A DNA stretch of 64,000 nt. It comes from Rhododendron vialii (lineage: Eukaryota; Streptophyta; Magnoliopsida; Ericales; Ericaceae). Below, piece by piece: positions 47,873 through 53,209 of the stretch. The notes under the pieces were generated by a model. It saw nothing but the letters and a program-made list of their open reading frames with translations, was not told where the DNA came from and ran no database searches. A program made the translations under genes and the position numbers. The stretch lies in assembly GCF_030253575.1 (NCBI RefSeq), contig NC_080561.1:35115564-35179563 (forward strand), written 5' to 3'. Position 1 is the stretch's first letter. Every line of letters starts with the position of its first letter.

Positions 47873-50800
47873 TTACAAAACACCCTCGAGTACAGGATCA
47901 TTTACACCAAGCGATTCGGGTGATTCCCTCGACATAAGTTCCACTTCTTCCTTAGCCCTGGCAAGCACTTCTTTGAGTTCATGAACCTTGGCTCGAGCCC
48001 ATTTCAAACTAGTTTCGCACGATTCAACAAAGATACGCGAGTCTGAGAGCTTATTCACCAATTCCGCTTCCTCTAGCCTCCGCTTTAGCCATGATAAGTC
48101 CAGCCCCACTTGCTCAAACTCCTTGACCGAAATGAATGCCTGGCAGATCGCTTCTTCATTCACCTCATTCACCTTGGTTGTTAACATCGACTCAACGAAC
48201 AAAGCAAACGACTCGAGTACCCCTGTTTGCATAAAGCGGCTAGTCACGGAGAATTTGACGAAAGTGTCCTTGTGAAGGCCGTGGATCTTTTCGAGTAACA
48301 GGGATGCCTCAGAAGAAACCCAGTATGATAAGAATCTGACTTTGCCTGCCGGAGGAGGAGTTGCGCTGTTTGAGTCCCGGTTTGAAGCATTGACGAATTG
48401 AGTGGGTTCAGAAGGGACATGCTTTGCTGCCTTAACAACATAAAGATTTTCTTTACATCACAAGTCACAACCATGTCAACATAATAGTAATCATTCACCA
48501 AATTACGTCACAGTCTGATAAACGCTAAGGCCCCGTTTGTTTGTATTGAATAAAGCATCAGATTGAACTATAAAATCAATGAGACCACATATCATGTATT
48601 AAATATCTTGTTGGATAGCAAATTCCACAAGACATGCAACATATACCATGGGGGATCTGGTATTATTGGTGCCCTCGGTATCACTCTCCTACTATCATGG
48701 AATTATTATCAATCCACTGTTAGTCCAGCCAAACAAACAGGGCCTAAGAGGCATGAGACGAAAAATTATGTACCTGATTTGCTGCATATGACTTCTTAGG
48801 AACATTCTGATAGAGCTGATTTCCTTCCTTCAACCTCTTAGGAACAGTGTCAGAGTGCTCCAACCCAAGGTACTGTTTCCACACCCCTACAACGTCCCTT
48901 TTCTGGAAAGAAAAAAAATGTCAAAAGTAGAAAAAGAGGGAAAATGCTAACCACCTCATCCAAGTATTGTATGCATGGGAATGAGCTAAGACGACACACT
49001 TAGATATGTGTCCAAAGTCCAAACTTTTATACTCCTAGTCAGACACCTTGGGGACACCCTAGGACATGTCGGGGACAGGCTGGGACATGATTTGAACACG
49101 TTAATGACATATAAGGATATCGTAATGCAATTATTATAAACTGCAAGAAAGCAATTTTTATAAGCTGCGAGAAGGCCAAAATTGCCGCAGATGATTAGTT
49201 GATGAATACTTATCTAGTTATTGCAGGTTTATATTTTTCCTAATGTTACCATTCTTCATGTTCCTTTATCAGATGTTACAAATTGAATTTATAGGATAAA
49301 ACTACAACATATATATGTTCAACATGTCCCCAAAGTGTCAGTGTCTTTGGAAGAATGATGTGTCCACTTGTCCAAGTCAGTGTCTGTATCCGTATCAGCG
49401 CGTGCATGTGTCCATGTGTAAAAGAGAGAAGGATTTACAAGCACCTGAACACGATTACAAATGATGTCCGAGTCCAGAAGGTATTCACGACGCACCAAAG
49501 ATAGTACTGCAAACTTCCACTGAGAAAAAGAGAATACATTAATTGCAGAAAGAACATTAAATGATGACAAAGCATAGATGGCATCTCCAAGTAAAGAGTT
49601 TGATGCGCCATAGAAAAATGTTAACTACTAAGAAGTAGTTGTACCTTTGAAAACTCCTCATCCGGCACCTGCAGTCTCTTTTGTATGCGTACCTTGACTT
49701 CAGCCAAGGTCTCACCGTCACGGACGACAAGGAAAAAAGGTTCCCCAAAATTCTGGACAGAGGTGCTACTTCTTGGTTCCCCTTGGTTCTGAGCTGCATC
49801 GACTTTAAAGTGATGAGCATGAATGAGACGGTCATGAGGACCAAGTTTCTTCTCCTCCTCTGGAATCTGTTATGAGGATTAATAAAGTCAAGAATGTTCT
49901 GACAAAAAGAGTAGATCAACTACAACATCACGAGAAAACTTGGCTTGCTGTATTAGTCAGGTGGACACATCCAAAGCAGCTTGCTGAGCCGCTGATAATG
50001 AACAGTCAATAGTTATTTCGGTCAAGGAAAAAGCCTCTCCAAACATGGGGGTAAGGTGGCACTAATCTTCCCTACAGAAACCCTGGTTTAGTGAGAACCT
50101 CACTCACACGGACACTGTCACCCTTTATCCATTTTGTAACTTTTGTTGAGTAAGGAAAATGAATATATATTTGTGTCATAGAGTCATTTCTGTATCAGTT
50201 ACACATTGTTAAATGAAACAAAAATGTTTTACCCATATGAGACTGAAATTTTGCCTTGGGAAGAAACTTGGTTGAAAACTGGAAACTGGAGAGGAAGCTA
50301 ATTAGTGAAGGCTTAGGTAATTTCCCATTCATCAATAACCGACACAAAAGCGCAAGCTAATTAGTGAAGGCTTGGGTAATTTCCCATTCATCAATTAGCC
50401 ACACAAACGCACAAGCTAACTAGTGAAGGCTTGGGTAATTTCCCATTCATCAATAACCGACAGAGCTGTTTGTGAAAGAACGATTGTGTAAAGTTCAATA
50501 AAGATCAAAACATCCAGTCTGAAGTCTTGATCACACAAATCAAGAAAAATGAAGCACCTTTTAGAAGAATTAAAGTATCATTTTAAGCAGAAAACACACA
50601 AGAAAATATGGAGAAACTCAATGCCAAGTTGCCAACATGCATATTAGACCAGCAAATGAAGATTATATATTACCTCCTCTGCACGTAATGTCCAGAACTG
50701 ATCATTGATATTCTCAATCTTTTCATCAATTGGGAAAATCTGCAAAATATACGGTGGCAGAACAACATATATTACAGGAAAGTTCTCAGTACAAATTAAT

Positions 50801-53209
50801 GATTTTACTTTGGAGGCCGCCCTATCAATCACTATCTCCCAAGAACCTTTGTAATGTGATAATTTCTCAAAGTATATTAAGACTGCAAGATCTTGTCCCA
50901 CATTGGTTAATTATTATCACCTCCAAAACTAGTACATAAGCCGGATGAGCCTCTCCAATTAAAGCCAATTGGTTTTGAGTTATATGCTTTAACACGGTAC
51001 TAGAACTAAGCTTGCGGAGGCTTTCAGACAAGATTCCTTTAATTGTTTGCCCCCATGTTTGTGCCATAATACCTTACTTTGTTGTGAACCCTATAGCGCG
51101 GATCATTTTTTAACATGCGATTGGGGGATGCACGCGGGGGAAGTGTTCTAGCTTTCATCATATAGGTTAATTATCACCTCCAAAACCCATGTGGCACCGA
51201 CACCGACACTCTAAATATGCAACACCTTATATACTTTAAATCTTATTTATCGCCACATCATCACAAAAGTATTCCAACACAAAGTGTTTCATCATCTACG
51301 TCATTAAAATCAATGAACTATTATATTTCACACAAGAAAGACTTTTCTAAGCTTCAACAAGAGTCTTAATTGCTTCGTTTAACACCCCGGACATGTCCTG
51401 TGAGTATCCCAAGAGTGTACAGAGCACTTTTTAGCTATGAAGCACCGACACCTTTAGAGGTCGAAGTATCGTAGTATTGGGACACGGGGACACATATGGG
51501 ACACGCCACGTGGCATTTCCCATAATTTAATTTAAATTTTTTTTTAGGGACATGATTGGGGACACGGGGGGACACGGCAGGGGCCCAATTATATATTTTT
51601 TTTAAAAAAATTAGGGACCAAATTGTAATTTTAAAAAAATGGGGATCAAATTGTAATTTTTTAAAATTTTGAGACCAAATTGCAATTTTTTTGTGTCAAA
51701 CTAAAATTATTTATTTATATAAATGAATAAATAAATAAATATATATATACACACACACACGCACGCACATGTGGCGTGTCCCCCACCATGTCCGTGCCCC
51801 TATTTTTTTAGAATTCTCGTGTCCCTGTGTCAGTGTTCGTATCCGTATCCGTGTCCGTGCATCATAGCTTTTTAGAGTGTCCCCGAAGTGAACAAACAAA
51901 GGATGATGAGAAATAATAGGACACTTCGGATTTTGACTGCTAGACACGTGTCTGGAGAGTGTCGGTGTCCGAAAATCCAAGAAATGTCTAACACCGCACA
52001 TGGACTCCGACGATGTGCCCTTGCTACATTGTCCAAAATTAATATTGTGAGCCTTAGCAACCACTCACATACAACTCATTGCTTTTTAGTTGGATGCTTT
52101 AACAATGATACAATAACAATCCATCAAGATGCATTTACTTCGAGCTCTTCTCAAGTTTAGTCCACAAACTCATAGTAATAGCTTGAAACATCTTTACCTT
52201 GTTGATCTTGTGATAGAAAATTTCAAGCAACCTAAGTTCGACTTTTGGATGTGACAACTCAACCTGTGCCAACAAAATGCAACAGGTGAATTACATTCTT
52301 GTTAAAATCGCATGAGAAGATGAACTCAGACGAAAATGGAATATTCTCAAATAAATTCGCCAAATCAGAAATAGTAAGAAGTTTGGCACAGAAGTGAGTG
52401 AAAGAGAATGGCATTTCAAGCAAGACAGGCACACATTATCGGGAATAAAGTATGCGTCCTGACAGAAGACTTACCATTGTCTTAAGTTCATTAAGAACAT
52501 CTCCGACAGTGCTCTGTTTTGGCAACCTGATAGTGTGATTTACTACCTGAAAATGGTTAAAACACGATTGAATAGGAGACTAGATCTAACACAAAAAAGA
52601 AAAATAAAACGACAGCTACAACTTGACACTCACTTCATCCTTGGAAGAAAGATGGAAAGCAACTTTTAGAGTTTTCAGGCCTTGAAGTTCTGGTAGAGGG
52701 ATATCCAATATCTCATAGTAAAGAATGTCCGAAATCTGCCAACCAGAAAGAGAAGATATTCGAAGCTAAGAATATAAGAGAAGCCTAAATCAGGGTGACA
52801 ATAATATGTTGGAAGAACCTGATTGTAGTGAACCAGCATGTCTGATAGATGTTCCACTCCTCGATAGTTGATTGGCTGGGGTTTAGGTTGCTGGGAGTAG
52901 CAGTTATGAGATGTAAGCCTTATTTTAGATGGATCATCCAAGCCAAGATGGTTGGCTACTCTTTCGACGACGTCATCATAATTGCGAACCTTTGATCTGA
53001 AAATTTAGACGAAGTAAACTTCTTTCTCAGACAAGTAAATCCATAAAGCACACTAAGCAAAGAAGAATAGAAACAAGTAAACAACTGATTAAATGCATTT
53101 TACCAGGAATAATTGTGGACAATAGCATAATTTGAAGAATTCGAAGAACTTACAACTTAAGAGAGAACTCATCCTCCTTAGGTTTCTCCAAAGAACGGAA
53201 GCGAACAAC
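47873..53209 (-). CDS. UBP12/13-like C-terminal ubiquitin-like region fused to coiled-coil tail, copy C (no protease domain)
   Basis: Ten exons: 53154-53209, 52819-52996, 52634-52735, 52475-52546, 52198-52263, 50674-50739, 49645-49866, 49445-49519, 48774-48902 and 47873-48430. Phases agree throughout (508 codons with stop, no internal stop). Hallmarks of the USP7-type C-terminal region follow each other: RFRSLEKPKEDEFSLK, DDVVERVANHLGLDDPSK, SDILYYEILDIPLPELQG, RLPKQSTVGDVLNELK, ENINDQFWTLRAEE, NFGEPFFLVVRDGETLAE and YLGLEHSDTVPKR. Where UBP12 should end just after YAANQ, a 558-bp exon adds about 185 residues with LSYWVSSEASLLLEKIHG, VESMLTTKVNEVNEE and a heptad-like LSWLKRRLEEAELVNK. No MATH or peptidase exon is found upstream (53210-58800), so it starts within the gene. 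Expected role, if made: a partner-binding or regulatory protein without deubiquitinase activity. The start codon is not identified. Confidence 0.75.
48529..48744. mobile_element. PIF/Tourist-like MITE in last intron of copy C
   Basis: Ends GGCCCCGTTTGTTTG and (inward) GGCCCTGTTTGTTTG, flanked by TAA (48526-48528, 48745-48747). The same element sits at the same place in copy D (61309-61524), so it predates the C/D duplication. Confidence 0.85.
50295..50465. repeat. 59-bp minisatellite, about three units
   Basis: Units start AAGCTAATTAGTGAAGGCTT at 50295, 50354 and 50413. Copy D has one unit (about 63278) preceded by about 210 bp that C lacks. Confidence 0.9.
51425..51872. mobile_element. Degraded non-autonomous DNA element (GACACGG-word family)
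   Basis: Ends AGCTATGAAGCACCGACAC and (inward) AGCTATGATGCACGGACAC are inverted repeats. The interior has GGGACACGG words, an AT-rich core with a short AAAT microsatellite and ACACAC run (51720-51770). It lies in the long intron (50740-52197) of copy C. The ends and word content suggest hAT. A clean target duplication was not seen. Related words occur at 49010-49120 and 49325-49410. Confidence 0.6.

Follow-up and report, generated by a model that had tools for sequence, protein, structure and literature searches.

A probable non-catalytic fusion of UBP12-type ubiquitin-like domains with a PEARLI-4-like tail in a gene cluster of Rhododendron vialii

Introduction

The closest described relatives of the gene studied here are UBP12 and UBP13, the plant USP7 enzymes of peptidase family C19. 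For USP7, activation by Ubl45 is reported to need the C-terminal tail, with tailless Ubl45 still binding the catalytic domain, weakly, and with a very weak contact of Ubl45 in trans (apparent KD 110 uM), while Ubl1-3 is described as a platform for partners (PMC6335408). Arabidopsis UBP12/13 are described as binding GIGANTEA through the MATH domain and not through the C-terminal part (PMC6704089). A second related group is the MATH-PEARLI-4 class, in which RTM3 is named and is reported to self-interact (PMC12238093, PMC3377653). Non-catalytic MATH genes are likewise clustered in the ParPMC1/2 locus of apricot, where one allele is broken and silencing by a MATH pseudogene has been hypothesised (PMC5787289), but the ParPMC products are given as MATH-only proteins with two MATH domains each (PMC12238093).

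Here we analysed a window of 64,000 nucleotides of Rhododendron vialii (NC_080561.1, positions 35,115,564 to 35,179,563), with focus on a gene herein called copy C. This gene is like UBP12/UBP13 in its UBL3-5 sequence and exon layout, but lacks MATH, catalytic domain, UBL1-2 and the last, activating-peptide exon, and it is without the U4b-U5a intron and carries a 14-residue insert. As to the MATH-PEARLI-4 class (RTM3 and relatives), its tail is similar to PF05278, for which the related copy B scores over the cut-off, and four genes of the cluster combine MATH with a tail of the same kind; copy C, however, has UBL3-5 in place of a MATH domain. We found no report of UBP12/USP7 UBL domains fused to a PEARLI-4 tail in the open-licence literature, a scope outside which most subscription papers fall.

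Results

Rebuilding the exons of copy C gave ten exons on the minus strand (53209-47873), having GT-AG borders in 9/9 introns, agreeing phases and 507 open codons followed by a stop, thereby reproducing the gene structure proposed in a preliminary description of this DNA. Copy C is composed of UBL domains 3-5 of a UBP12/USP7-type protease and a tail of 185 residues. The view of this gene as a free UBL block with a tail and no protease was also borne out, with the frame open in two copies, C and its near-twin D. Not all of the five C-terminal UBL domains of UBP12/USP7 were present, as Pfam gave only PF12436 (positions 172-241) and PF14533 (2-202, matching residues 83-298 of C) and then, on the tail, PEARLI-4 below threshold. 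Compared with the UBP12 gene of the cluster (P), dN was 0.095 and dS 0.38 over 303 comparable codons.

Table 1. Positions in the window of copy C, its siblings and their relics
Feature	Position	Strand	Description	Basis
Copy C, exons 1-5	53209-53154, 52996-52819, 52735-52634, 52546-52475, 52263-52198	-		exon rebuild
Copy C, exons 6-10	50739-50674, 49866-49645, 49519-49445, 48902-48774, 48430-47873	-		exon rebuild
Copy C, UBL3-5 block	48774..53209	-	exons 1-9, homologous to UBP12 exons U2c-U5c	exon rebuild, piece search, codon comparison
Copy C, exon 10	47873..48430	-	185-residue PEARLI-4-like tail with heptads, replacing last UBP12 exon	
Copy C, candidate first coding exon	55954..55968	-	MNRLQ, donor GTAAGC, phase 0, ATG at 55968	inference
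Copy D	60653..64000	-	architecture as C; exons 6-10 in window, exons 1-5 at 65692-64704 beyond window end	
Copy B	15919..22185	-	ten exons from ATG to stop (441 aa): UBL1-2, 29-nt exon (16600-16572), tail	
Copy A	1734..12582	-	damaged UBL1-2 and tail; frame breaks, splice acceptor lost, tail frame still open	
Relic	39697..40609	-	3' end of further C-like copy, three matching pieces	
Relic	13554..13610	-	exon U2c, between B and A	

The tail occurred eight times in 137 kb, each time fused to a non-catalytic piece of UBP12. In four genes, all on the plus strand, this piece is MATH; in B, which is intact, and in A, which is decayed, it is UBL1-2; in C and D it is UBL3-5. Tails of a similar PEARLI-4/coiled-coil kind are found in the MATH-PEARLI-4 (RTM3) class; the PEARLI-4 (PF05278) scores of 27.2 bits for C and 19.8 for D fell under the Pfam cut-off of 29.9, whereas the homologous tail of B exceeded it at 36.9. 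The structural model of the tail was all-helical but of low confidence (pLDDT 52), and its best 28-residue heptad window was matched by 3/300 shuffles for C and 4/300 for D. The tail had been described as absent from ordinary UBP12, which was true of P, but it appears to belong to a known class and is found in eight neighbouring genes.

P ends NRHTFEKPVRIYN, and its last exon is absent from C and D, which have the tail exon in that place. When P was aligned with human USP7 (4yoc_C), the match ended three residues into this last exon, leaving 10 residues of the plant protein and 11 of the human one; by position the exon is the counterpart of the activating C-terminal peptide of USP7. The proposal that C carries the part switching on the protease was not supported, as C and D lack this exon and Ubl45 activation is reported to need the C-terminal tail (PMC6335408); because the PEARLI-4-like tail replaces it, the UBL part of C should be regarded as being without its switch.

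Among the tail genes lies P, an apparently complete UBP12 on the plus strand. The MATH genes of the cluster carry a UBP12-like MATH, and one of them, MC3, retains UBP12 sequence (SHDSKKETG) that stops just short of the catalytic Cys box. A presumed stop codon in the first MATH exon of MC4 was dismissed, since its TAA is part of the splice donor (TG/GTAAGT), and MC4 is hence not shown to be broken. In copy B, Pfam matched PF12436 at 1-170, and as this match stops at position 170 while that of C/D starts at 172, the UBL pieces of B and C/D are complementary.

We searched for MATH and catalytic exons with the UBP12 gene on C1 as 30 query pieces (M3 overlapping UCH1) against C5:35025001-35209000, listing matches to E 0.5. 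All 30 pieces (30/30) matched P, in order. The minus strand here had no match at E < 0.1 (lowest 0.18) to any of the 11 pieces that cover MATH and the catalytic domain (M1-M3, UCH1-UCH8); the MATH/TRAF pieces M1-M3 gave nothing to E 0.5, and for the UCH domain with its Cys and His boxes 0/8 pieces matched at E < 0.1, compared with 8/8 in P. By Pfam and piece search, a MATH domain was absent from C and D. N9, the piece right after the catalytic ones, was found as a worn relic with a stop in A (E 0.002) and as a doubtful match in B (E 0.21); other doubtful N9 matches near 55.3-55.8 kb (E 0.04 and 0.21) were on the plus strand. These searches upheld the claim that no MATH or catalytic exon lies upstream of C, as none was found within 40 kb on the minus strand at E < 0.1, and gave no support to catalytic exons being joined from upstream of 58.8 kb. 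A reading of C as the last exons of an ordinary UBP12, with such exons joined from further upstream, would be in line with exon 1 opening at an internal UBP12 splice acceptor, but the lack of pieces extended to 35209000, a point 40 kb upstream of exon 1, copy D with its own 3' end sits in between, and UBP12-like sequence reaches no further above exon 1 than 11 nt in C and about 45 nt in D. This explanation is strongly disfavoured and we give it hardly any credence.

Because exon 1 starts at that internal acceptor and has an in-frame TAG directly upstream, 53209 is not the start of gene C. The candidate start codon, common to C and D, is the ATG at 55968, to which 67433 corresponds in D, beyond the window end. 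The conservation of this exon sits within generally homologous C/D flanks and counts as modest evidence for it; since C and D are homologous there, a shuffle control on the shared ATG exon (0/100) was uninformative. A genome search with 231 bases around the exon, common words being skipped, matched only C itself and D (bases 20-99). An earlier alignment-based scan for shared ATG exons had given six matches with poor donors, the 55968 exon not among them. A start at an internal Met (residue 71) is possible and leaves PF14533 and the tail intact, but the upstream ATG exon common to C/D was preferred.

Comparing C with D, no indel was found in 1,524 exonic bp, as opposed to 44 events in 3,256 aligned intronic bp, from which 20.6 exonic indels were expected (P about 1e-9, as a Poisson count that ignores clustering); introns 7-9 had just two indels, so that the lack of exon indels in the 3' half is uninformative (P 0.22). 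Substitutions numbered 67/1524 in exons and 207/3256 in introns (Fisher p 0.006), and the splice sites of the introns were kept in both copies (18/18). The preliminary description had named a dN/dS near 1 as evidence against a functional gene. After C and D parted, the UBL part has such a value (omega 0.92, not different from 1, p 0.8); the tail does not (0.29, Fisher p 0.012), and the indel counts disagree with it as well. On the UBL stem branch before the split omega was 0.37 (below 1, p 0.0037), and tail pairs across three clades gave 0.22-0.44. By these values the tail is constrained, and the UBL part has been near-neutral since the split. Introns 7-9 of C and D were 97-98% alike, hinting at possible gene conversion, and the probability of no stop after 67 random substitutions was about 5%.

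Discussion

We tentatively interpret C and D, at somewhat under an even chance for this reading as a whole, as a recently duplicated, protein-coding non-catalytic chimera acting as a UBP12 adaptor or decoy; that they are protein-coding is probable. This reading is favoured by the lack of exon indels, the tail and stem omegas and the presence in B of its own ATG with an open frame, while the UBL omega since the split, a start codon that is only a candidate, the poor tail model and the sub-cut-off PEARLI-4 scores of the tail count against it. The main rival, somewhat unlikely in our estimate, is that C and D are young duplicates heading to decay, with frames kept open through recency or gene conversion and a UBL-tail protein having no role. 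This would fit the near-neutral UBL block, the uncertain start, the alike introns, the 5% chance of escaping stops, and the fate of their neighbours, with copy A broken by now and more relics found at 40609-39697 and 13610; it accounts poorly for the deficit of exonic indels, the intact splice sites and the low tail omega.

That constraint in C/D falls on the tail and not on the UBL block, together with low omegas for tail pairs in three clades and the open tail frame of even the decayed copy A, could also mean that the coiled-coil tail alone is functional and the UBL block a passenger. We consider this quite unlikely, since the UBL exons are likewise free from indels and their stem branch was constrained. 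In the cluster, copies A-D run opposite to UBP12 (P), minus against plus strand, and these copies might act as RNA, giving small RNAs that silence UBP12 or siblings, similar to the ParPMC2 hypothesis in apricot (PMC5787289), but a lack of indels specific to exons points to protein coding and makes this very improbable.

Returning to the chimera as a coding gene, C/D may be a regulator rather than an enzyme, because its neighbours join other non-catalytic UBP12 parts to the same tail. The tail would then self-associate or pair with siblings of the MATH-tail and UBL1-2-tail kinds. The UBL block of C, for its part, may bind the catalytic domain of UBP12, or partners of UBP12, but would be unable to activate, with the protein serving as a non-catalytic adaptor or decoy tuning UBP12 in a fast-evolving cluster. 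The very weak trans contact of USP7 Ubl45 and the binding of Arabidopsis GIGANTEA via MATH count against an adaptor role. A bolder proposal, distinctly unlikely, is that in this lineage all non-catalytic parts of UBP12 (MATH, UBL1-2 and UBL3-5) have become genes of their own, whose products come together via their common tail as a UBP12 look-alike lacking the protease, which captures the substrates and partners of UBP12 without deubiquitinating them.

If the chimera is what we propose, the plant makes deubiquitinase regulators from the enzyme's own non-catalytic domains, by repeated fusion to one tail, and the cluster would tie UBP12 biology to an adaptor class that includes RTM3, a restrictor of virus movement. 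The locus provides a compact natural series (MATH-tail, UBL1-2-tail, UBL3-5-tail and complete UBP12) for testing function as well as the birth and decay of chimeric genes.

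Structure of copy C and its siblings

The window corresponds to C5:35115564–35179563. The ten-exon open model of copy C given in the preliminary description was reproduced exactly, running on the minus strand from 53209 to 47873 with 507 codons and a stop, and upon rebuilding of the exons all nine introns had GT-AG borders. In Pfam comparisons C matched PF14533 almost as a whole domain (2–202 of 204) and PF12436 only at positions 172–241, the end of that family. Compared with solved structures, residues 10–303 aligned to 804–1089 of a 1102-residue human USP7 chain (9plr_C), the ubiquitin-like (UBL) part of C thereby aligning with human USP7. 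The sibling copy D had exon lengths identical to those of C and kept every splice site. Copy B, with an ATG at 22185 and ten exons (441 aa), contained UBL1 and UBL2 followed by a 29-nt exon, required for the frame, and the tail; its PF12436 match covered 1–170 vs 172–241 in C and D, and the UBL array is thus split at one exon boundary between B and C/D. Copy A had the layout of B without the small exon N12, and was broken.

The 5' end of exon 1 in C is an internal splice acceptor of UBP12. In C as in D, TAG is the codon preceding exon 1, and above this exon UBP12-like DNA extends for no more than 11 nt in C and about 45 nt in D. Candidate start exons are listed in the table, from which proteins of 512 aa for C and 512 or 523 aa for D are predicted, an in-frame 33-nt insertion in D bringing an extra, earlier ATG at 67466. 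When the genome was searched (532.6 Mb, 13 contigs), the 5' piece holding this exon matched C and D only. Just ahead of it, at 56070–56030 and near 67715 in D, lies a possible seven-codon upstream frame common to both, MI(V/F)FHWN, preceded by the shared acceptor-like site TTTCTTTCAG. The C/D alignment also displayed a tRNA-like stretch upstream of exon 1 (53480–53400 in C, about 66047–65900 in D, with a unit of ~50 bases repeated head to tail in D), which we take to be SINE-like.

Candidate start exons and other features (window numbering; positions above 64000 lie beyond the window end)
Feature	Position	Strand	Details
Candidate first coding exon of C, MNRLQ	55968-55954	minus	donor GTAAGC, phase 0
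Candidate start exon of D, MKRLQ	67433		counterpart of the MNRLQ exon of C
Long dihydrodipicolinate synthase frame, within the cluster	35620-36600	minus	PF00701, 303.5 bits
Frame with weak M48 peptidase match	30944-31933	minus	16.7 bits, under cut-off 20.3; we assume perhaps an exon of an OMA1-like gene
Similar frames, inverted pair	40603-41477, 41880-42691	plus, minus	one with weak DUF1985 match; possibly a palindromic transposon copy
156-codon open frame	22864-23334	minus	no Pfam match up to E 0.01

The surrounding cluster

Searching C5:35025001–35209000 with the C1 UBP12 gene cut into 30 exon pieces, we found all 30 in order in the plus-strand gene P (35092631–35114979), the sole complete set in the region and apparently a complete UBP12, in which the Cys and His boxes are recognisable. 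None of the 11 MATH and catalytic pieces matched the minus strand of this region below E 0.1, bearing out the earlier statement that no such exon lies upstream of C. The piece directly following these, N9, was seen in A as a worn relic (E 0.002) containing a stop. Protein matches to the tail were found at no fewer than eight places, all within C5:35.04–35.18 Mb, with a further weak match at C5:12.53 Mb (27% identity); these are lower bounds, the search having given 12 matches with three genes represented twice. Four of the eight places are A–D on the minus strand. The other four, MC1–4, lie on the plus strand and have UBP12-like MATH exons, the last of them in one open frame with the tail; the MC3 linker retains the UBP12 sequence SHDSKKETG to just short of the Cys box.

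Junction and tail

The last exon of P codes NRHTFEKPVRIYN, and in its place C and D splice exon U5c, the last UBL piece, to the tail exon. Aligned with human USP7 (4yoc_C), P was matched until three residues into this last exon, beyond which 10 residues remain in the plant protein and 11 in the human one; the remainder corresponds by position to the C-terminal peptide of USP7. According to the excerpted text of PMC6335408, activation of the USP7 catalytic domain by Ubl45 needs the C-terminal tail, although tailless Ubl45 continues to bind weakly and to raise ubiquitin affinity; the apparent KD of trans activation is 110 uM, and Ubl1-3 form a platform for partners. C and D accordingly retain the docking part but lack the switch.

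The cluster tail is similar to the PEARLI-4 region found in the MATH-PEARLI-4 class (excerpts of PMC10218331 and PMC3664471), to which RTM3 is assigned (PMC12238093, in part); as excerpted from PMC3377653, RTM3 self-interacts, with both its MATH and coiled-coil domains mattering for resistance. Against the Pfam cut-off of 29.9 bits, the tail of B scored above (36.9), and those of C (27.2), D (19.8), MC1 (26.8) and MC3 (29.0) below. Modelled with AlphaFold from four sequences, the tail of C came out all helix, but the model was poor (pLDDT 52). The best heptad window lay in the last long helix of C, D and MC1, where 3, 4 and 0 shuffles out of 300 did as well, and in an earlier helix of A and B (5/300 and 15/300); for MC2, MC3 and MC4 it was reached by 10, 11 and 11 of 300, and these three tails have a two-heptad duplication of 14 residues there.

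History of the cluster

The tail tree gave three clades, (C,D), (A,B) and (MC1–4), one per architecture, with all separating branches at 100% ultrafast bootstrap. Synonymous distances were 0.92 [0.62–1.34] between the tails of C and B, 0.38 [0.29–0.49] between UBL3-5 of C and P, and 0.50 between UBL1-2 of B and P. The C–B tail split being older than the C–P UBL split, these distances suggest that UBP12 pieces may have been captured separately by tail-bearing genes. However, MC4 (C5:35085566–35087356, beyond the window) is a mosaic with a tail firmly in the MC clade and a MATH part far nearer P than that of MC1 (0.29 [0.17–0.46] vs 0.79 [0.54–1.30]). This pattern speaks for recent exchange or gene conversion involving P and neighbouring genes, by which the C–P distance could have been reduced too.

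Constraint and possible function

The chief rival to a functional gene is ordinary decay after duplication, consistent with the broken state of A and with near-neutral change in the UBL part. Codon models over 303 codons (C, D, P and the UBP12 genes of C9 and C1) gave a background omega of 0.045 and 0.37 on the C/D stem, below 1 with p 0.0037 on a branch that may span time preceding truncation; the C/D tips, at 0.92, did not fall below 1 (p 0.8), and the comparison of tips with stem gave p 0.048. The tails of C and D differed by 10 synonymous and 10 nonsynonymous changes (omega 0.29, Fisher p 0.012), and the entire proteins gave 0.55 (p 0.025). As a check on the claimed gene, dN/dS thus spoke for constraint in the tail and, since the split of C and D, not in the UBL part. 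The exons had no indels in 1,524 bases vs 20.6 expected from the introns, where 44 events occurred in 3,256 aligned bases, 35 having a length not divisible by three. Introns 6–9 alone predict 9.8 indels in their adjacent exons and introns 7–9 only 1.5, so the missing-indel signal stems from the 5' part. Substitutions numbered 67/1,524 in exons and 207/3,256 in introns (Fisher p 0.006). With exon indels absent and these omega values, frame and tail look maintained and the UBL sequence relaxed or fast-changing. Introns 7–9 were 97–98% alike and introns 1, 2, 5 and 6 only 86–93%, which suggests gene conversion in the 3' half.

Judged from its domains, C is best read as a non-catalytic adaptor or decoy. 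Its tail would keep it oligomeric, either by itself or together with siblings, its UBL block would engage UBP12 or partners of UBP12, and absence of the activating peptide should keep C from switching the protease on. As excerpted from PMC6704089, Arabidopsis UBP12/13 need the MATH domain for GIGANTEA binding, and neither the protease part nor the C-terminal part mediates this contact; a MATH-tail sibling could thus compete for GIGANTEA, and C would not be expected to. We found no description of a fusion between USP7-type UBL domains and a PEARLI-4 tail in the open-licence literature. The single parts are known; their combination appears to be new, as does the sharing-out of the non-catalytic modules of UBP12 onto one tail.
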